DNA of 28,247 nucleotides from a virus. The DNA lies in the IMG/VR virus record IMGVR_UViG_3300027906_000104, positions 1 through 28,247 of that record; one strand, written 5' to 3'. A program made the position numbers and the translations under genes. The notes beneath the pieces were generated by a model, which saw nothing but the letters and a program-made list of their open reading frames with translations, did not search any database and was not told the origin of the DNA. The stretch's first letter is position 1. Each line of letters starts with the position of its first letter. Below are positions 3,678 to 26,588 of this stretch, one piece after another.

Positions 3678-4736
3678 ATGGCAACTACAGTAACATTAAC
3701 AAAACCATCTAATAACTGGCAGAGTTTTTGTGACTGGGTTACTAGTACCGACAACCGTATATATCTCGGTTGGTTCGGTGTCCTAATGATCCCTGCACTA
3801 TTAACAGCAACAACAGCATTCATACTTGCGTTTATTGCGGCTCCTCCAGTAGACATAGATGGCATACGCGAACCCGTCGCAGGCTCTCTACTCTATGGCA
3901 ACAACATCATCTCAGGGGCAGTCGTCCCATCATCTAACGCAATCGGTCTTCACTTCTACCCAATCTGGGAAGCTGCAACCATCGACGAATGGTTGTATAA
4001 CGGTGGACCATATCAACTCGTTGTGTTCCACTTTCTCATCGGTATCGCAGCATACATGGGACGCCAATGGGAACTTAGTTATAGACTAGGTATGAGACCT
4101 TGGATATGTGTAGCATATTCAGCTCCCGTCTCGGCAGCCTTTGCTGTATTCTTAGTCTATCCCTTTGGACAAGGAAGTTTCTCTGATGGTATGCCACTAG
4201 GTATATCAGGGACGTTCAACTTCATGTTTGTCTTTCAAGCAGAACATAATATATTAATGCATCCCTTCCATATGGCTGGGGTAATTGGTATGTTTGGTGG
4301 TGCTTTGTTTGCTGCTATGCATGGTTCATTAGTGACTTCTTCATTAATACGTGAGACTACTGAGAATGAGTCTCAGAACTATGGATATAAATTCGGTCAA
4401 GAGGAAGAGACGTATAACATTGTTGCGGCTCATGGCTACTTTGGAAGGCTTATCTTCCAATACGCTAGTTTTAATAATAGTCGTAGCCTTCATTTCTTCC
4501 TTGCTGTTTTCCCAGTCGTTTGCATATGGCTCACCTCTATGGGAATCAGTACTATGGCTTTTAATCTCAACGGTTTTAACTTCAATCAGTCAATCGTTGA
4601 TTCAAATGGTAGGGTTGTCCCTACTTGGGCAGACGTCTTGAACCGTGCTAACCTAGGAATGGAAGTGATGCACGAAAGGAATGCTCATAACTTCCCGCTC
4701 GATCTAGCGGCTAAAGAGATAACAAAATATGCATAA
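3678..4736 (+). CDS. psbA: Photosystem II D1 reaction-centre protein
   Basis: A 352-aa D1, colinear with cyanobacterial D1 (about 360 aa) to residue 344. Key residues are present: Tyr161 (TyrZ, in [11 protein letters not shown]), Asp170, Glu189, His190, His198 (MHPFH), His215, Ser264 (ASFNN), His272, and the manganese-cluster tail His332, Glu333, His337, Asp342, Ala344 (HNFPLDLA). Residue 130 is Gln, the form found in low-light D1 types. Only eight residues (AKEITKYA) follow the CtpA cleavage point after Ala344; about 16 is usual. The product would enter host thylakoids and replace photodamaged D1, keeping energy flowing during infection. GC is near 50% in 3841-4080 and near 39% in 4321-4500 by hand count, hinting at a recombinant history. 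The frame is intact. Confidence 0.98.
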
Positions 4737-4741
4737 AGTCA

Positions 4742-5239
4742 ATGACTTTTACACCACCCTATTGGAATCATAAAAGAACTATATTCCCACGGGCTGAAAT
4801 AGATCGTGTTATATCAGATATAAAATCTAATCCTATTGAATATAATAATATATCAAGTTATCCTGCAAATCGTCTAAGACCTGAAGCTAGATGGCTTGAT
4901 AGATATAGCAAAATCATAGGTGAATTTATGTCTGATATGGGATTATTTAAAAGAAATTCATATACATTTAGTTATTGGGCTCAACTTTATTTGAACAATC
5001 ATGATCATAAAATCCATAACCATTTAGGAGATGGAGCTACTATCAGCTTTGTTCATTTTATCAGACCTAGCCCAGAACCTCTTTTTAGATTTTCAAATTT
5101 TAATGGTGAATATCATGTACCACAGAAACAAACAGCTGGAGAGATTCTATGCTATCCAGCATGGTTGTGGCATGAAGTACTACCTAATGAATCTAATATA
5201 GAAAGATTTATTGTTGCTGGAAATGTATCAATAGATTAA
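4742..5239 (+). CDS. Putative 2OG-Fe(II) oxygenase-like protein
   Basis: A 165-aa protein with the layout of small phage 2-oxoglutarate/Fe(II) dioxygenases: a helical N-terminus, then FSYWAQLYLNNHDHKIHNHLGD (visible as YWAQLYLNNHD and HNHLGD; His92 and His94 likely hold one iron-site edge), a beta-strand segment TISFVHFIRP, and the distal motif GEILCYPAWLWHEVLP with His144, followed by Arg155 in ERFIVAGNVSI, which would contact 2-oxoglutarate. Such enzymes hydroxylate proteins or small molecules in the cytoplasm; the substrate cannot be told. It starts five bases after psbA and shares its accessory island. Codon use is more AT-rich than psbA. The classic H-x-D pair is not clear (H-x-H instead), so catalytic activity is uncertain. 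Confidence 0.65.
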   Translation: MTFTPPYWNHKRTIFPRAEIDRVISDIKSNPIEYNNISSYPANRLRPEARWLDRYSKIIGEFMSDMGLFKRNSYTFSYWAQLYLNNHDHKIHNHLGDGATISFVHFIRPSPEPLFRFSNFNGEYHVPQKQTAGEILCYPAWLWHEVLPNESNIERFIVAGNVSID

Positions 5240-5245
5240 CATCAC

Positions 5246-5310
5246 GTCCGTTCATCCTTTCACAAGGACGCATGAAACCACAGCATGGAACGGGGTTGTG
5301 GTACTTGGAG
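5246..5310 (+). promoter_or_regulatory. Glutamine-II riboswitch (Downstream-peptide RNA motif)
   Basis: The 137-nt gap holds the conserved core of this cyanobacterial/cyanophage glutamine aptamer. P1 is formed by CCGTTC (5248-5253) with GAACGG (5288-5293); P2 by TCCTT (5255-5259) with AAGGA (5264-5268) around loop TCAC; a pseudoknot by ACCACA (5277-5282) with TGTGGT (5297-5302). The characteristic unpaired words CGTTCATCC, GGACGCATGAAA and GCATGGAACG are all present. The 3' pseudoknot strand ends two bases before the Shine-Dalgarno TTGGAG (5305-5310) of a 13-codon ORF. From the known family, glutamine stabilises the pseudoknot and should occlude that ribosome site, lowering translation when nitrogen is plentiful. 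The direction of control is inferred, not shown. Confidence 0.88.
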
Positions 5311-5317
5311 ATTACTA

Positions 5318-5359
5318 ATGGTAACACTTAAGTATCGTGGTGTAACTTACACAAAATAA
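5318..5359 (+). CDS. 13-residue YRG micro-peptide, PirA/DUF4278-like, riboswitch-controlled
   Basis: The frame reads MVTLKYRGVTYTK and stops with TAA. A strong ribosome site (GGAG at 5307-5310, seven-base spacing) sits right behind the glutamine riboswitch. The pattern M-x-L-x-YRG-x-x-Y is the N-terminal signature of DUF4278 proteins, the family of the cyanobacterial PII-interacting arginine-synthesis regulator PirA, and is what is usually encoded downstream of glutamine-II riboswitches. Known members are longer, so this is a miniature containing only the signature. By family, it may act on host PII and nitrogen/arginine flow; that is inference. It could alternatively be a leader peptide that couples translation to the secreted protein gene 17 nt downstream. 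A shortened remnant is also possible, although aptamer and ribosome site look intact. Confidence 0.72.
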   Translation: MVTLKYRGVTYTK

Positions 5360-5376
5360 CATTTAATTAATTTAAC

Positions 5377-5736
5377 ATGAAAAAAATTGCACTAGCCCTA
5401 GCTACAATTACATTTGCTTCGACTCCTGCAATGGCTGGCGTCTATGTAAATGCCGAGTCAAATGCATCTTATACAGGTAATGACTTTACCTCTAGAACAA
5501 CTGATCTTCATCTAGGCTATGAAGGTAATGTAGGACAGCTTGGATACTATGTCCAAGGTGGTCCAGCCTTTGCAGCTGCAGATGGAGCTGATGGTACAAC
5601 TGATTTCTCAGGTAAGCTCGGAGGTTCCGTAGCAGCATCAGAGAAGTTAGATGTATATGGAGAGATCTCATTCCTTACAGATGAGACTGCTGATACAGCA
5701 TACGGTACTAAGATAGGTGCTAAGTTTAAGTTCTAA
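5377..5736 (+). CDS. Secreted small beta-barrel-like outer-membrane protein
   Basis: A 119-aa protein with a clear Sec signal peptide, MKKIALALATITFASTPAMA, and predicted cleavage after Ala20 (AMA|G). The mature part alternates polar and hydrophobic residues in strands (VYVNAESNASYTG, DLHLGYEGNVG, LGYYVQGG, KLDVYGEISFL) and ends KIGAKFKF, with a terminal aromatic residue as recognised by the outer-membrane assembly machinery. About six strands fit this length, so it is either a very small barrel or part of an oligomeric one. It would be exported by the infected host. It follows the riboswitch-controlled ORF by 17 nt and may share its control. Function unknown; possibilities are altered uptake, exclusion of other phages, or lysis help. 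Confidence 0.7.
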   Translation: MKKIALALATITFASTPAMAGVYVNAESNASYTGNDFTSRTTDLHLGYEGNVGQLGYYVQGGPAFAAADGADGTTDFSGKLGGSVAASEKLDVYGEISFLTDETADTAYGTKIGAKFKF

Positions 5737-5894: not shown

Positions 5895-6030
5895 AATTAA
5901 TGAACTATGGATAGTGGTCTTCGGACTGCTATCCTTCATTCTATTTGTAGAATGGTCTCATGTAATACATCATGAGAAGGCGGCACCTCATTGTGCTTCC
6001 AGCGAGATTAGTTTAGCGGTAAAACTGTAG
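5887..6030 (+). CDS. Possible GTG-started single-span membrane peptide
   Basis: A 47-aa frame starting with GTG that overlaps the end of the previous gene (GGTGAGTAA) and runs 29 nt into the tRNA gene. It reads MSKINELW followed by a hydrophobic span IVVFGLLSFILFVEW (residues about 9-23), then HVIHHEKAAPHCASSE. A well-formed transmembrane span with a short N-terminus, and the coupling to an upstream stop, argue for a real gene. The weak ribosome site and the overlap with tRNA-Gly argue against it. Its last eight or nine residues are encoded by tRNA sequence, so the natural C-terminus may be a by-product. Confidence 0.4.
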   Translation: MSKINELWIVVFGLLSFILFVEWSHVIHHEKAAPHCASSEISLAVKL

Positions 6031-6072
6031 CCTTCCAAGCTATTGTCATCGGTTCGATTCCGATATCTCGCT
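6002..6072 (+). tRNA. tRNA-Gly (anticodon UCC)
   Basis: A full cloverleaf can be folded by eye: acceptor GCGAGAT/ATCTCGC, D arm GTTT-AGCGGTA-AAAC, anticodon stem GTAGC/GCTAT with loop CTTCCAA (anticodon TCC), four-base variable loop, T arm ATCGG-TTCGATT-CCGAT, and discriminator T as usual for tRNA-Gly. Length 71 nt, with no encoded CCA. It decodes GGA and GGG. It is the only tRNA in the window, placed just ahead of the capsid gene in the most highly expressed part of the genome; the late proteins, above all the glycine-rich adhesin at 22589-23758, use many GGA codons. Confidence 0.95.
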
Positions 6073-6083
6073 TTGGCTTTAGC

Positions 6084-21072: not shown

Positions 21073-22589
21073 TGGCTAAATTATTAAAACTAAGACGTGG
21101 TACAACCACGCAACATGGTAGCTTTACTGGAGCCGAAGGTGAAGTTACTGTCGATACCGATAAGGAAGCCCTTGTCGTACATAACGGTTCAACAGCTGGT
21201 GGTTTTCCAGTAGCTAGAGCAGACGGTACAGGTGTAACCAACTTTACTATTAGTGGTGAATTAGATGCTGCTACTTTAGATATCTCAGGTAATGCAGATA
21301 TTGATGGTAATTTAGATGTAGATGGTACATTAGAAGCAGATGCATATACAGTAGATGGTACAGCTCTTAATGAGTATATAGCTGATACTGTTGGTGCAAT
21401 GGTAGGTAGTAATACTGAAACAGGTATTGCAGTTACATATGAAGATAGTGATAATACATTAGATTTCTCTATTACATCAATACCAGGTGTAACATTTACT
21501 GGTGATGTTATCTTTACTGGTGATGCAGCTACTATTACTTTTGATAAATCAACAGATGATTTGATCTTCAATGATAATGCAAAAGCAATATTTGGAACAC
21601 TTTCAGATGGTCTTGAAATCTATCATGATGCATCTAACTCATACATAAAAGATGCAGGTACTGGAGGTTTATTTATACAAGGCGAAAGTCAAATATTACT
21701 AGGGGATAGCTCTGATGGTGACCATTATATTATTGCTACCAAAGATGGAAGTGTTGACTTATATCATAATAATGTTAAGAAGATTGAAACAACTGCAACT
21801 GGAATAGATGTAACTGGAACAGTGACAACAGATGAGTTAACAGTTAAAAAAGCATCTGGTAATTTAGGTGTTCTTATTGAGGCTGATAATGGTCTAGGAA
21901 CTATGGAAATCGGAGGTTCAACTGGCGCATTTATTGATTTAAAGACACCAATTTCTGATGATTTCGATTTAAGGGTAAATGCTGATGGTACTTTAACAAG
22001 TGTTGGTAATATATCCTTAAAGGTTAAAACTAATGAAGAGGGAATAAATATCACACAAGATGGAGCTGTAGATTTATATCATGATAATATCAAAACAGTA
22101 TCTACAATTGCTAATGGTATAAATGTTACTGGAACAGAAGCTGCTTCTGCATATATAGAATTGTTTGCTGATGAAGGTGATGACAATGGCGATAAGTGGA
22201 GAGTAGAATCTTCTCAAGTTGATAATAAATTTAAAATTCAACATTATGGAGCTGGTTCTTGGGTAACTGAAACAGAGTTAGATTCATCAGGAAATCTTGT
22301 TGCTACAGGTAACGTAACTGCTTATTCTGATGCCAGACTAAAGACAGATGTTGATACTATTGAAAATGCACTAGATAAAGTAACTAAACTCAGAGGTGTA
22401 TCTTATACTAAAGCAGATACTCAAGAAAGAGGTATTGGTGTAATTGCTCAAGAGATTGAAGAAGTAATCCCTGAAGTTGTACAAGACGGTGCATATAAAT
22501 CCGTTGCCTATGGAAATATTGTAGGCGTCTTAATTGAAGCTATTAAAGAGCTTAAATCTGAAATCGACGAATTAAAAGGAGGTAAGTAA
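21072..22589 (+). CDS. Second tail fibre/tip protein with S74 intramolecular chaperone
   Basis: A 505-aa protein. The N-terminus MAKLLKLRRGTTTQHGSFTG and the next GEVTVDTDKEALVVHNGSTA form a module seen at the start of many cyanophage fibres. The middle is beta-rich with repeated motifs (SDGLEIYHDASNSYIKDAG, DGSVDLYHNNVKKIETTATG, DGAVDLYHDNIKTVSTIANG). The last 87 residues are a peptidase S74 chaperone: SDARLKTDV contains the autocleavage Ser419 and partner Lys424, then GIGVIAQEIEEVIPEVV and a coiled end, IEAIKELKSEIDELKGGK. The chaperone trimerises and folds the fibre, then cuts itself off before Ser419. The product would be a trimeric tip of about 418 residues. Confidence 0.92.
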   Translation: MAKLLKLRRGTTTQHGSFTGAEGEVTVDTDKEALVVHNGSTAGGFPVARADGTGVTNFTISGELDAATLDISGNADIDGNLDVDGTLEADAYTVDGTALNEYIADTVGAMVGSNTETGIAVTYEDSDNTLDFSITSIPGVTFTGDVIFTGDAATITFDKSTDDLIFNDNAKAIFGTLSDGLEIYHDASNSYIKDAGTGGLFIQGESQILLGDSSDGDHYIIATKDGSVDLYHNNVKKIETTATGIDVTGTVTTDELTVKKASGNLGVLIEADNGLGTMEIGGSTGAFIDLKTPISDDFDLRVNADGTLTSVGNISLKVKTNEEGINITQDGAVDLYHDNIKTVSTIANGINVTGTEAASAYIELFADEGDDNGDKWRVESSQVDNKFKIQHYGAGSWVTETELDSSGNLVATGNVTAYSDARLKTDVDTIENALDKVTKLRGVSYTKADTQERGIGVIAQEIEEVIPEVVQDGAYKSVAYGNIVGVLIEAIKELKSEIDELKGGK

Positions 22590-23758
22590 TGGCTTGTCCA
22601 TCTAGCGGAACTATTACAATACAAGATTTAGTTGATGAGTTTGGGGGATCTACCCCTCACTCATTAAGTGAATATTATAGAAACGGTGCTAATGTCCCAG
22701 GAAATAACACTAATGTACCTGAATCAGGTGCAATTGATTTAGCGGATTTTTATAGTGCTGTTAATGAAATACAATATACAATTAGTACAGATACTGCAAA
22801 TCTAAACCTAGAAACTGCATTCACTACTTCTAACTGGACATCTACTGTACCTAAGAGACTTATTATTAATTCTACTAAATCAGTATATGGTACTGGTGCA
22901 AATGCTGCAATTACAGCTCCTGATGGTATGTTAGGAACACTTATCATTGATAATAATGGTAATATTTATGGAGCAGCAGGTGCAGGTGGAGCAGCAGGAC
23001 AAGCTGGTGGTGTAGGTGGTGATGCTATATCATTACATGCAAATATAACCACAGGTGTAACTATTAATAATGCATCTGGTGCTAACATCCAAGCTGGTGG
23101 AGGCGGCGGCGGCGGTGCTGCAACAGGAGGTACTGGCGGTACTGGTGGTAATGGAACTAAATCTGCTTGTATGTGGACTTTCCAATATTGTTGGGGCTTT
23201 ATGTGGCAAATCTACACTCCAGTAACGGCATGGTGTTCTCCTGGAGGAGCTGGCGGAGCTGGAGGAGCTGGAGGAGCTGGCGGAGCTGGTGCAACTTATC
23301 AATCTTTAACAGGTACTGCAGGTTCAGCTGGTGCTGCTGGCTCTAGTGGTGCAAGCGGTACTGGACCAACAAACTGTTATACATATGGTCAATGTAGTAA
23401 TGCTGGTACATCAGGAACTGGTGGTGCTGGAGGTGCAGGCGGTACTGGAGGTACTGGAGGTACTGGTGGAAATATAGGACTTAGTGGAGCTGATGGTGCT
23501 GCTGGTTCTGCTGGTGCTTCTGGCAGTGGTGGTTCACATGTTGGAGCTACTAACTGCTGTCAACACCAACGACCATGTAGCACAAGTGCTTTAGCGAAAA
23601 ATCGTCACAACTGGTCAGTATTATATCCTTCATCAGGAGGTGGTGGCGGTGCAGCGCCAAGTGATCATGGTGCTGGAGGACTTGCAGGATATTACCTTTT
23701 AGATCCAGGTACTGCAGTAACTATGAATAATAGTGGAACTTTAACAGGAAGATCTTAA
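22589..23758 (+). CDS. Glycine-rich tail-tip adhesin candidate
   Basis: A 389-aa protein. The first ~60 residues (ITIQDLVDEFGGSTPHSLSEYY, seen as LVDEFGG and HSLSEYYRNG) form a module common in cyanophage tail proteins. From residue about 128 onward it is dominated by glycine-rich runs (GAAGAGGAAGQAGGVGG, GGTGGTGGNG, GGAGGAGGAGGAG) broken by short cysteine- and aromatic-rich segments: CMWTFQYCWGFMWQIYT with CSPGG, NCYTYGQCSN, and NCCQHQRPCSTS. This is the layout of polyglycine-II sandwich adhesins such as T-even gp38, where the runs build the core and the intervening loops contact the receptor. A role in host recognition is inference. Glycine codons are mainly GGT and GGA; the latter is read by the phage tRNA-Gly(UCC). 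Confidence 0.75.
   Translation: MACPSSGTITIQDLVDEFGGSTPHSLSEYYRNGANVPGNNTNVPESGAIDLADFYSAVNEIQYTISTDTANLNLETAFTTSNWTSTVPKRLIINSTKSVYGTGANAAITAPDGMLGTLIIDNNGNIYGAAGAGGAAGQAGGVGGDAISLHANITTGVTINNASGANIQAGGGGGGGAATGGTGGTGGNGTKSACMWTFQYCWGFMWQIYTPVTAWCSPGGAGGAGGAGGAGGAGATYQSLTGTAGSAGAAGSSGASGTGPTNCYTYGQCSNAGTSGTGGAGGAGGTGGTGGTGGNIGLSGADGAAGSAGASGSGGSHVGATNCCQHQRPCSTSALAKNRHNWSVLYPSSGGGGGAAPSDHGAGGLAGYYLLDPGTAVTMNNSGTLTGRS
23243..23287 (+). repeat. Five tandem 9-bp GGA-GGA-GCT repeats
   Basis: Five consecutive copies of GGAGGAGCT or GGCGGAGCT encode G-G-A five times in the glycine-rich core of the adhesin. Such a tract can change copy number by slippage without breaking the frame. Confidence 0.9.
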
Positions 23759-25164: not shown

Positions 25165-25532
25165 AGAAATGGCTATTACTCTTCCTACTGGCATCACCCA
25201 CGGTAGCGAGAGCAGAGTTAGTAACCCCTCAATTTACACAGGGGTCGATGAACTCGACAACAACTACCACCCAAGAAATCGTAGAGGAAATTACAACGAC
25301 AACCTATGGCTCTGCACTAAATTCATGGGATGGAATCAATATTACTCATACTTCAGCAAGTTCTGGAGGATTAGTAGACTCAGATTCCGTCTTCACGCTA
25401 CATACAGTTGGCGATCCCTTCTCATTAGAAATAGTGACAAGAGCAGCCAGTCAAGTGCTGTCAGTAACAGAAATAGAACGAGAAATCGACACTACTTCTA
25501 CTACGGTCTCCTTATCAGTCTTCTCTCAATAG
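25161..25532 (+). CDS. Secreted protein, first of an overlapping pair
   Basis: A 123-aa protein with a Sec signal peptide (MKKWLLLFLLASPTVARA, cleavage before Glu19), then VTPQFTQGSMNSTTTTTQEI and a beta-rich Thr/Ser body ending TTVSLSVFSQ. Similar short exported proteins with a VTPQFTQGSM segment are common in cyanophages, where they are hypothetical or tentatively virion-associated. Its start overlaps the end of the holin-candidate gene by four bases, and the distal part of the frame overlaps the coding frame of the next secreted protein. Confidence 0.75.
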   Translation: MKKWLLLFLLASPTVARAELVTPQFTQGSMNSTTTTTQEIVEEITTTTYGSALNSWDGINITHTSASSGGLVDSDSVFTLHTVGDPFSLEIVTRAASQVLSVTEIEREIDTTSTTVSLSVFSQ

Positions 25533-26179
25533 CACCAGTTCGTGCTGGAGAAGGTGAAACAAATAACACTTCTAACCCTGTGGCGGCTGCAACGGGCAAT
25601 GTGACCAACCAAGCCGTCCAATTTCAGAACAATGGTGCTCCATCTAGGCAGCACTATGGTCCTAATATAAGCTGTAATGGCAGCACAATGACTTTTTCCC
25701 CATTCTATATGGGTAATCATACCTCTCCTTATGATGATACTATGACTCAACAGAGTTATACAGTAGCAGAAAACTGGGGATTCCAAGTTAACTTCATGGT
25801 TCCTTTAGATAAGGGAGGTTTAGAACAATGCAGACAGATGGCTGCACGTCAGGAAGATAAGATGAAACTTAATTACGAGCTAGTAAGAATCGACAATTGT
25901 GCTAAGCTTCAACAAAAAGGTTTCATGTTAATGCCTGGTTCTCGTGTATATCATCTATGTAGTGATGTAATACCTATAGCTGCCTGGAAAAAAGCACAAG
26001 CAAAGGTTCTTAAATGTAAGAGCCCACCTAAGCCATGGTATAAACCGTGGTATAAACCTATAGAGCAATGTCAAATGAGTACTTTATCAGATTTGAAAGC
26101 TAAAGAGCTTGCAGCAGCTGAAAAGAAAACTAAAAAACAGTCTAAAACAGAAGAGAAAACCACTACCACTAAAGAATAA
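25325..26179 (+). CDS. Secreted/membrane-anchored protein, second of an overlapping pair; start uncertain
   Basis: The part that is clearly coding begins near 25490: a hydrophobic signal-like run HYFYYGLLISLLSIAPVRA, cleaved before GEGETNNTSNPVAAATGNVT, then the conserved block QAVQFQNNGAPSRQHYGPNI and cysteines (SCNG, QCRQ, NCAK, LCSD, KCKS, QCQM) suggesting disulfides, and a Lys-rich tail. The frame is open from well upstream, but no ATG, GTG or TTG lies close to the signal peptide: in-frame ATGs are at 25169 and 25325, and an ATT at 25424. The 25325 start is given provisionally. The true start may be non-standard, or the protein may be made by a -1 frameshift from the preceding gene. Cyanophage homologue-like; function unknown. 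Confidence 0.6.
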   Translation: MGWNQYYSYFSKFWRISRLRFRLHATYSWRSLLIRNSDKSSQSSAVSNRNRTRNRHYFYYGLLISLLSIAPVRAGEGETNNTSNPVAAATGNVTNQAVQFQNNGAPSRQHYGPNISCNGSTMTFSPFYMGNHTSPYDDTMTQQSYTVAENWGFQVNFMVPLDKGGLEQCRQMAARQEDKMKLNYELVRIDNCAKLQQKGFMLMPGSRVYHLCSDVIPIAAWKKAQAKVLKCKSPPKPWYKPWYKPIEQCQMSTLSDLKAKELAAAEKKTKKQSKTEEKTTTTKE

Positions 26180-26334
26180 TGATCCTATTAATCAAGCCCA
26201 TCCTGTTCGCCTTCTTGAAGTCAGATTCAGTTAAGAAACTTGTAGTAGATTTACTAGAAGCTTATGTAGCTAGAACTGATAATAAATTAGATGATCAAGC
26301 ACTTAAAATTGTAAAAGAGAAACTATTTAACTAA
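26179..26334 (+). CDS. Small amphipathic/membrane-associated protein
   Basis: A 51-aa protein: MILLIKPILFAFLKSDSVKK, then LVVDLLEAYVARTDNKLDDQ and ALKIVKEKLFN. The hydrophobic start and the amphipathic helix suggest it lies at the membrane surface. Start and stop overlap both neighbours by one base (TAATG on each side), so it is firmly inside the operon. A protein of this pattern is frequent in marine cyanophages, but no function is known. Confidence 0.65.
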   Translation: MILLIKPILFAFLKSDSVKKLVVDLLEAYVARTDNKLDDQALKIVKEKLFN

Positions 26335-26588
26335 TGCATAAAGCCACTGAAGACCAGTTCAATGAATTACATAGCCTTGTCACAACAGAATTCCTACAAC
26401 GGGTAAAAAGTGGCACTGCTACAACACAAGACTTAAAAGCCGCTTGTGACTGGCTAAAAACAAATGATATAAGCGGTATTGCTTACGAAGGTAGTCCTTT
26501 AGATAAGCTAGCTAATATAATACCTAAAGTAGACCCTGAACTCGTAAAACGGAGAATGTATGGCAAAATCGTCAACGCAAACCTATAA
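26334..26588 (+). CDS. Small terminase subunit-like (TerS, gp18-like)
   Basis: 84 aa, near the 89 aa of T7 gp18. The segment EFLQRVKSGTATTQDLKAACDWLKTNDISG (seen as LQRVKSGTATTQDLKAACDWL) matches the helical core of cyanophage and T7-type DNA-recognition terminase subunits, and GSPLDKLANIIPKVDPELV follows. TerS binds concatemer DNA and loads the large subunit for packaging. The position ahead of the large terminase supports this, although three genes intervene. It overlaps the next gene by 29 nt. Confidence 0.75.
   Translation: MHKATEDQFNELHSLVTTEFLQRVKSGTATTQDLKAACDWLKTNDISGIAYEGSPLDKLANIIPKVDPELVKRRMYGKIVNANL

Follow-up and report, generated by a model that had tools for sequence, protein, structure and literature searches.

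Which function is served by the glycine-rich protein of 389 residues that a virus record of IMG/VR, IMGVR_UViG_3300027906_000104, encodes directly behind a tail-fibre gene? The stretch of this record analysed here, called the window throughout, comprises 28,247 bases (GC content 37.5%). A first-pass annotation made from the letters alone had proposed a gp38-like glycine-sandwich adhesin in a podovirus. We conclude, with a probability of roughly 0.84, that the protein forms the host-recognition tip at the distal end of a tail fibre, comprising a dock for an S74-bearing fibre, a gp38-like polyglycine-II (PGII) sandwich and disulfide-stapled receptor-binding loops. To our knowledge, the receptor-binding proteins of T7-like cyanophages are poorly defined. 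The protein, termed the adhesin below, is a concrete candidate for this role, and a large uncultured family stands behind it (482 stretches encode a relative, the best 80 of which were taken into the analysis).

Glycine tracts and fold

Glycine makes up 23.4% of the adhesin and 0 to 16% of the 22 other window genes listed. Adjacent glycine pairs number 30, against a mean of 21 and a maximum of 35 in 2000 shuffles, a moderate excess. Glycine periodicity was measured by permutation (2000) over 24 non-redundant relatives, the set that also underlies the mean identities and the proline share given below. Tracts 3, 4 and 6 follow a GGX pattern, with two phases at 0.92-0.97 glycine and the third at 0.01-0.32, and tracts 5, 7 and 8 follow a GXX pattern, with glycine at 0.95, 0.94 and 0.77 in one phase. 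The three-residue phase was reached by 0 of 2000 permutations for tracts 4, 5, 6 and 7 (p = 0.0015 for tract 3 and 0.018 for tract 8), and it was not significant in the first hairpin, formed by tracts 1 and 2 (p = 0.14). PGII repeats with three residues per turn, and a glycine at every third residue therefore fits this conformation. The GGX tracts would be buried between neighbours and the GXX tracts would lie at the edge. Counting the tracts as antiparallel would bring loops 1, 2 and 3 together with a short first turn at one end of the lattice, opposite the two proximal turns. The glycine runs split by Cys/Trp/Tyr-rich loops, from which the first-pass annotation had started, are thus real and correspond to the adhesin tracts and loops 1-3. 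An automatic measure of tract length was swayed too much by loop composition and was left unused.

Two AlphaFold2 models, built from 6 and 24 sequences, both have a mean predicted local distance difference test score (pLDDT) of 66.1 and a predicted template modelling score of 0.57. Both contain a confident beta-helix, a glycine region modelled with low to medium confidence and, at the C-terminus, strands that rejoin the beta-helix. A Foldseek search of the PDB with the first model returned seven matches at E <= 10, and the three at E <= 0.001 are all gp38 (phage PP01, 9v85 chains C and A; phage S16, 6f45). In VIA-align, S16 and PP01 gp38 score Z = 17.8 and 16.6 with the first model and 19.1 and 18.1 with the second, whereas the first unrelated chain reaches 7.5 and 8.9, respectively. 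The alignment with 6f45_D covers 191 residues at a root-mean-square deviation of 3.2 for the first model and 193 residues at 3.5 for the second, spanning model residues 3-389. Structure prediction, which had been proposed as the check on PGII packing, therefore favours the idea: the models match the gp38 glycine-sandwich fold far above other chains, with PGII itself read from periodicity rather than from torsion angles. The gp38-type plan of a beta-helix with glycine-sandwich extensions is matched by the model Z values together with the three-residue phase, and from these two lines we infer that the tracts adopt polyglycine-II torsion. A mycobacteriophage Bxb1 tail-tip chain (VIA-align Z = 2.7) was too weak a match to use.

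Variable loops and their cysteines

Mean pairwise identity is 0.12 in loop 1, 0.15 in loop 2 and 0.37 in loop 3, compared with 0.46-0.76 in core tracts 3-8 and 0.51 and 0.41 in proximal turns 1 and 2. The loops vary more than the proximal turns, which agrees with loops on one face, although the contrast between loop 3 and proximal turn 2 is weak. Loop 1 ranges from 17 to 139 residues, and its aromatic share is at least 0.14 in 13 of the 18 proteins whose loop 1 has at least 29 residues. Conserved loops on a varying glycine core, the pattern that had been named as speaking against an adhesin, are not the general rule; the loops vary and the core is kept. At the DNA level, the identity of the window and locus L001 is 82-98% over the S74 end of the fibre gene and the first 540 adhesin bases, drops to 45-82% across the tracts and loops and is back at 85-87% at the C-terminus. 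A diversity-generating retroelement was considered as the source of variation and set aside, since those genes of the window that were scanned with Pfam include no reverse transcriptase; this negative concerns a genome fragment, and no search aimed at template repeats was made.

All eight cysteines from residue 170 on lie in the loops, which hold 75 of these 220 residues, and only Cys3 lies elsewhere; the loop borders were drawn by eye where glycine stops, which makes this count partly circular. In each of the first 24 relatives, the total of loop cysteines is even (21 have any). This served as a prediction for further proteins: among 47 new distinct relatives, with cysteines counted after the start of tract 3, five have none, 41 an even number and one an odd number, and the first 71 relatives are even in 62 of the 63 cases with any loop cysteine. 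As a control within these 71 proteins, counts are even in 23-67% for 18 other residue types and in 16 of 42 for cysteines before tract 3. Clustering at 40% non-glycine identity, carried out on the first 71 proteins only, left 26 of 27 cysteine-bearing clusters wholly even. A third, more distant set of 29 contains 12 proteins with none, 13 with an even number and four with an odd number, each a single cysteine. Over 100 distinct relatives, counts are even in 75 of 80 proteins with any loop cysteine and in 75 of 76 with two or more, a cut chosen post hoc after the four single-cysteine exceptions had been seen.

The start of tract 3 was at first located by a strict pattern, which left 35 of 55 complete loci without a value and misplaced L102 and L106; its replacement was made after 16 accepted loci had been seen to be all even. 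Four cut loci of 55 were dropped from the 47-relative set, and L025 of the first set was added back. The third set began with 36 loci, six of which were dropped (two cut, two without GGGG and two identical to earlier ones); one identical pair was merged to give the 29 distinct proteins, and nine same-contig repeats were not counted. The dropped loci without GGGG (L144 and L146) encode ten cysteines each in the whole protein.

The even counts imply disulfide-stapled loops, and an even cysteine number has been used as evidence of disulfides for bovine antibodies (PMC7366855). The hypervariable loops are very probably stapled by cysteine pairs; the parity among relatives supports the disulfides that the first-pass annotation had read from the paired loop cysteines. 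The window is alone among the first 24 in having odd counts within single loops (3, 2 and 3). If all of these cysteines pair, loops 1 and 3 are linked, either directly or via loop 2, and a disulfide link between them is predicted for the window phage. If this prediction from parity holds true, hypervariable loops stapled by disulfides would be within the means of phage fibre tips.

Docking, kinship with gp38 and competing readings

In 29 of the 30 close loci scanned, counting the window, the gene directly upstream of the adhesin encodes an S74 chaperone. The scan covered 30 of 33 close loci, leaving aside two duplicates and one with 62 upstream residues, and stopped short of locus L073. The exceptional close locus, L026, has by gene listing a 2OG-Fe(II) oxygenase (4378-5001) directly upstream in place of S74. 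The adhesin ATG overlaps the last base of the upstream stop codon, and this one-base overlap is kept in 32 of 33 loci, the window among them. Across wider loci that share the docking domain, S74 lies upstream in 31 of 38, most of them with other C-terminal parts, and those lacking S74 appear to include KVP40-type Vibrio phages, a Xanthomonas phage and a Lentibacter phage. The gp37 fibre of S16 likewise ends in S74 (1.4e-11).

The docking domain (residues 1-58) is the best conserved part of the protein, with a mean identity of 0.77. It contains three weakly similar segments, from residues 6, 21 and 46, that are predicted to be short helices. This triple repeat is reached by 1 of 200 column shuffles at 10 columns and by 2 of 200 at both 11 and 12; at 9 columns it is reached by 7 of 200, and the best triple is a different one. 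Segments 1 and 2 pair only weakly. The domain has no match to PF21721 (Gp38_N) and no Trp in residues 1-58. In S16, an N-terminal three-helix bundle inserts three tryptophans into pockets of the gp37 trimer, as described in PMC6851490. By analogy, the docking domain may plug into a trimeric fibre tip without these tryptophans, and the weak triple repeat may be an analogue of the Gp38_N attachment.

The docking domain occurs in other settings as well. Loci L007-L017 and L055-L059 encode glycine-rich, nearly cysteine-free proteins of about 310-350 residues with the docking domain, mostly an upstream S74 fibre, and a different C-terminal part. KVP40-type phages carry it in small proteins (L068 4438-5031, Vibrio phage KVP40; also L021 and L072), seemingly with no S74 gene in front. 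A bacterial metagenome bin, Rhodobacteraceae Water_Bin34, also has it (L128 5001-5198), possibly on a prophage or viral contig. The class at L007-L017 and L055-L059 suggests a shared dock with exchangeable tips. In metagenomes, where ordinary sequence search fails on glycine runs, adhesins may be traceable by a simple rule: a docking-domain gene that immediately follows an S74 fibre.

Kinship with gp38 was followed by profile comparison. Pfam GP38 (PF05268) gives no match for the window adhesin or the L004 and L036 proteins, and a Rhizobium phage homologue comes close to the cutoff of 25 (3.8e-5, 24.1 bits). A 10-member profile including this homologue matches a profile of seven T-even gp38s with a probability of 93.7 (E = 1.9e-7), and a 24-member profile does so with 69.2 (E = 4.4e-5). 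Residues 1-169, a range that excludes the long glycine tract 3 and keeps the first hairpin, match gp38 1-150 with a probability of 50.7, compared with at most 11.1 for 30 column-shuffled decoys. Remote homology of the beta-helix to gp38 is likely, though not beyond doubt. The proposal of a gp38-like protein thus stands by fold, glycine phase, gene order and variable loops, and falls short at formal Pfam membership; because that membership is lacking, "gp38-like" is the right label and "a gp38" too strong.

Matches from sequence searches of the PDB, many to glycine-rich linkers and collagen, arise by chance and are made useless by low complexity. Searches of phages with tblastn returned 12 records for the whole protein, all limited to residues 1-127, and 53 records for residues 1-59, with no cultured cyanophage in either. 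The homologue of Rhizobium phage RHph_I46 is 33% identical over adhesin residues 1-123. The best BFVD match is a protein of phage RL2RES named Gp38 domain-containing, and BFVD holds related predicted proteins of the Prochlorococcus phages P-SSM2 and MED4-213. Glycine-sandwich tips may therefore be more common among cyanophages.

Among known systems, T-even gp38 (S16 6f45, PP01 9v85; PF05268, PF21721) is closest. It shares a beta-helix, two turn extensions into a glycine lattice, hypervariable distal loops, a gene position just after an S74-bearing fibre and a chain that ends in the beta-helix. In the S16 protein, turns b5-b6 and b8-b11 are drawn out into ten polyglycine-II helices that bear five hypervariable loops at the distal end (PMC6851490), and PP01 gp38 is reported to have five loops of 6-10 residues (PMC12892980). 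The adhesin, in contrast, has eight tracts with three long loops and one short turn, falls under Pfam detection, has a dock without detectable similarity to Gp38_N, carries even-numbered loop cysteines where the seven T-even gp38s have 0 or 1 after the glycine run, and belongs to a T7-like cyanopodovirus rather than a T4-like enterobacterial phage. That loops act as binders in the gp38 fold is best supported by crosslinking, which places loops D and E of PP01 gp38 in contact with OmpC (PMC12892980). By analogy, the adhesin loops probably grip the host cell.

The putative tail fibre adhesins of the Rhizobium phages RHph_I46 and RL2RES have the same dock and beta-helix behind an S74 gene, but RHph_I46 is a phage of about 154 kb whose adhesin has no cysteine. 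Pam3 gp24 likewise forms the fibre tip of a cyanophage and combines a glycine-rich lattice with distal ends that vary (PMC9608196). As described there, it differs in being a trimeric single-protein fibre of a myovirus, with a domain resembling tumour necrosis factor (TNF) and 12 glycine-rich motifs. It is not among the listed fold matches, an absence that does not count against a TNF-like kinship as such; the model is a beta-helix matching gp38. The haloarchaeal hafunaviruses also have a glycine-rich tail adhesin, whose hypervariable segments govern host range (PMC8651126), but they are archaeal myoviruses, and the available text of that report mentions no cysteine feature. Bovine antibodies with ultralong third heavy-chain complementarity-determining regions (CDR H3) offer a likeness without kinship, namely hypervariable loops with changing cysteine pairs on a fixed stalk, yet they are vertebrate immunoglobulins diversified somatically (PMC7366855). 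The literature searched, which excludes most subscription papers, lists neither a title nor an abstract giving an account of this adhesin family or of disulfide-stapled PGII adhesins. The dock, the host group and the paired-cysteine loops appear to be new, and as far as computation tells the protein would otherwise work like gp38.

The conserved N-terminal dock would cap the S74-processed upstream fibre, with one adhesin copy per fibre tip. Beta-helix turns would run out as antiparallel glycine tracts and pack into a polyglycine-II sandwich as in T-even gp38. Judged from the order of the tracts, all three variable loops would leave the distal face and bind the cyanobacterial surface, and their disulfides would form after lysis into oxic sea water. 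The adhesin model indicates which residues should touch the host. A wider idea, to which we give even odds, is that marine phages independently reached the solution of cow antibodies: an unchanging glycine lattice bearing very long hypervariable loops, shaped by varying sets of cysteine pairs, some of them between loops. On this idea, the conserved dock would allow such tips, and other C-terminal binding domains, to be swapped among S74-type fibres across phage lineages, as a widespread and evolvable marine library for host recognition.

Several observations weigh against the gene being such a stapled, gp38-like tip, and some of them lend themselves to other explanations. The window adhesin (P0001) matches no Pfam family. 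The glycine core (pLDDT about 50-85) and the docking domain have low confidence in the models, and AlphaFold2 probably saw 6f45, released in 2018, in training, which is why the sequence evidence matters. L080 has an odd count of seven cysteines, and L157, L164, L165 and L170 carry one each. Between L022 and L023, the loops are conserved at 95-100%, the N-terminal half dips to 77% and the upstream fibre stalk is about 50% identical in DNA, so the loops are not always the fastest-changing part. This pattern and that of the window with L001 would both fit segment exchange, and either selection or recombination may lie behind them. The cysteines could also bind a metal, zinc or iron-sulphur, in a protein of the same fold and place. 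Even counts and adjacent cysteines such as Cys323-Cys324 can occur in metal sites, and phage proteins fold in the reducing cytoplasm. We regard metal binding as unlikely, however, given that counts of 2, 6 and 10 occur among the relatives besides 4 and 8 and that histidine, even in 29 of 65, has no parity.

Two further readings deny the protein a role in host recognition or its lattice. A fibre assembly factor or cap without host specificity, with loops that vary as unconstrained sequence, has a precedent in T4 gp38, which PMC6851490 describes as a chaperone and not a receptor binder. Variability alone is no proof of selection, and the conserved L022/L023 loops point the same way. Loops free of constraint would not, however, preserve even counts of cysteine, and the aromatic share of the long loops 1 and the adhesin-type gp38 fold also speak for a binder; we consider a pure assembly role improbable. 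Still less credible is a glycine-rich protein, collagen-like or unstructured, that acts as a spacer or decoration. GXX periodicity is a signature of collagen too, and one BFVD match is named "Collagen triple helix repeat", but a proline content of 1.5% after residue 170 speaks against collagen, and GGX is the pattern in three of the six tracts 3-8. The tracts are also short and broken by long loops, and the model matches gp38, with a chain that returns to close the beta-helix. The reading as a disulfide-stapled, gp38-like fibre tip is therefore retained.

Source virus and gene neighbourhood

Along the window, genes of T7 type follow one another as they do in T7: connector, scaffold, capsid, tail tube, nozzle, a gp13-like gene, large internal proteins and a fibre whose N-domain is of T7 type; gp13 and the fibre N-domain were matched with scores under their Pfam cutoffs. 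The window also carries psbA (photosystem II D1), and the cultured phages closest to it in DNA are those of Prochlorococcus and other cyanophages, for example P-GSP1 and 9515-10a. This gene content bears out the podovirus named in the first-pass annotation, and the virus can safely be labelled a T7-like cyanopodovirus whose host would be Prochlorococcus or Synechococcus. The features of the adhesin region are listed in Table 1.

Table 1. Adhesin gene, its parts and its neighbours, in window coordinates
Feature	Position	Strand	Evidence or content
T7 gp17-like tail fibre, 707 residues	18949..21072	+	Pfam PF03906 E 6.9e-5, 23.0 bits (cutoff 25.2); PHROG tail-fibre families
Second fibre protein, 505 residues	21072..22589	+	Mtd_N residues 6-41; S74 intramolecular chaperone residues 419-470 (~22326-22481)
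Adhesin gene, 389 residues	22589..23758	+	ATG to TAA
N-terminal docking domain, residues 1-58	22589..22762	+	Most conserved part
Beta-helix, residues 59-169	22763..23095	+	pLDDT mostly 80-96 in both models; VIA-align and profile alignment to gp38 beta-helix
First glycine hairpin (tracts 1-2), residues 128-146	22970-23026	+	Turn of the beta-helix
Glycine sandwich, residues 170-366	23096..23686	+	Three-residue glycine phase
Sandwich tract 3	23096-23155	+	
Sandwich tract 4	23243-23290	+	
Sandwich tract 5	23312-23359	+	
Sandwich tract 6	23405-23470	+	
Sandwich tract 7	23492-23539	+	
Sandwich tract 8	23633-23686	+	
Proximal turns of sandwich	23291-23311, 23471-23491	+	
Hypervariable loop 1, residues 190-218	23156..23242	+	Cys 194, 201, 216; 28% Trp/Tyr/Phe
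Hypervariable loop 2, residues 258-272	23360..23404	+	Cys 263, 269
Hypervariable loop 3, residues 318-348	23540..23632	+	Cys 323, 324, 330
C-terminal strands, residues 367-389	23687..23755	+	Return to close beta-helix; pLDDT 83-92; aligned to last gp38 residue
Small downstream gene, 185 residues	23778..24335	+	phrog_9114, unknown function

In its N-terminal part, the first fibre protein is similar to the tail-binding N-domain of the T7 tail fibre. The second fibre protein, with Pfam matches to PF13884 (2.8e-16) and PF18454 (2.1e-14), is presumed to be a trimeric stalk that the adhesin would cap after chaperone cleavage. Relatives of the small downstream gene lie beside the adhesin in 56 of 88 close loci; 14 of 15 family members have no Pfam match, and one has a weak Rib match. 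We guess that its product could be an assembly chaperone. Oxygenase-like genes, recognized by eye, lie directly downstream of the adhesin in L025 (6194-6850) and L033 (6206-6862).

Elsewhere in the window, the interval between the scaffold and capsid genes holds psbA, a cyanophage outer-membrane-like beta barrel (PF24653) and a putative 2OG-Fe(II) oxygenase (PF13759, phrog_81), all within 3678-5736. A tRNA-Gly with anticodon tcc (6001-6073) precedes the capsid gene and would read the 33 GGA codons of the adhesin gene; it might aid translation of glycine-rich genes. Downstream of the fibre genes, a match to the terminase small subunit (phrog_891, 26334-26588) occupies the position typical of T7-like genomes. 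An open reading frame of 336 residues with seven cysteines (25169-26179) matches two PHROGs of unknown function, and up to 43 of the 88 close loci have a relative of it downstream of the adhesin.

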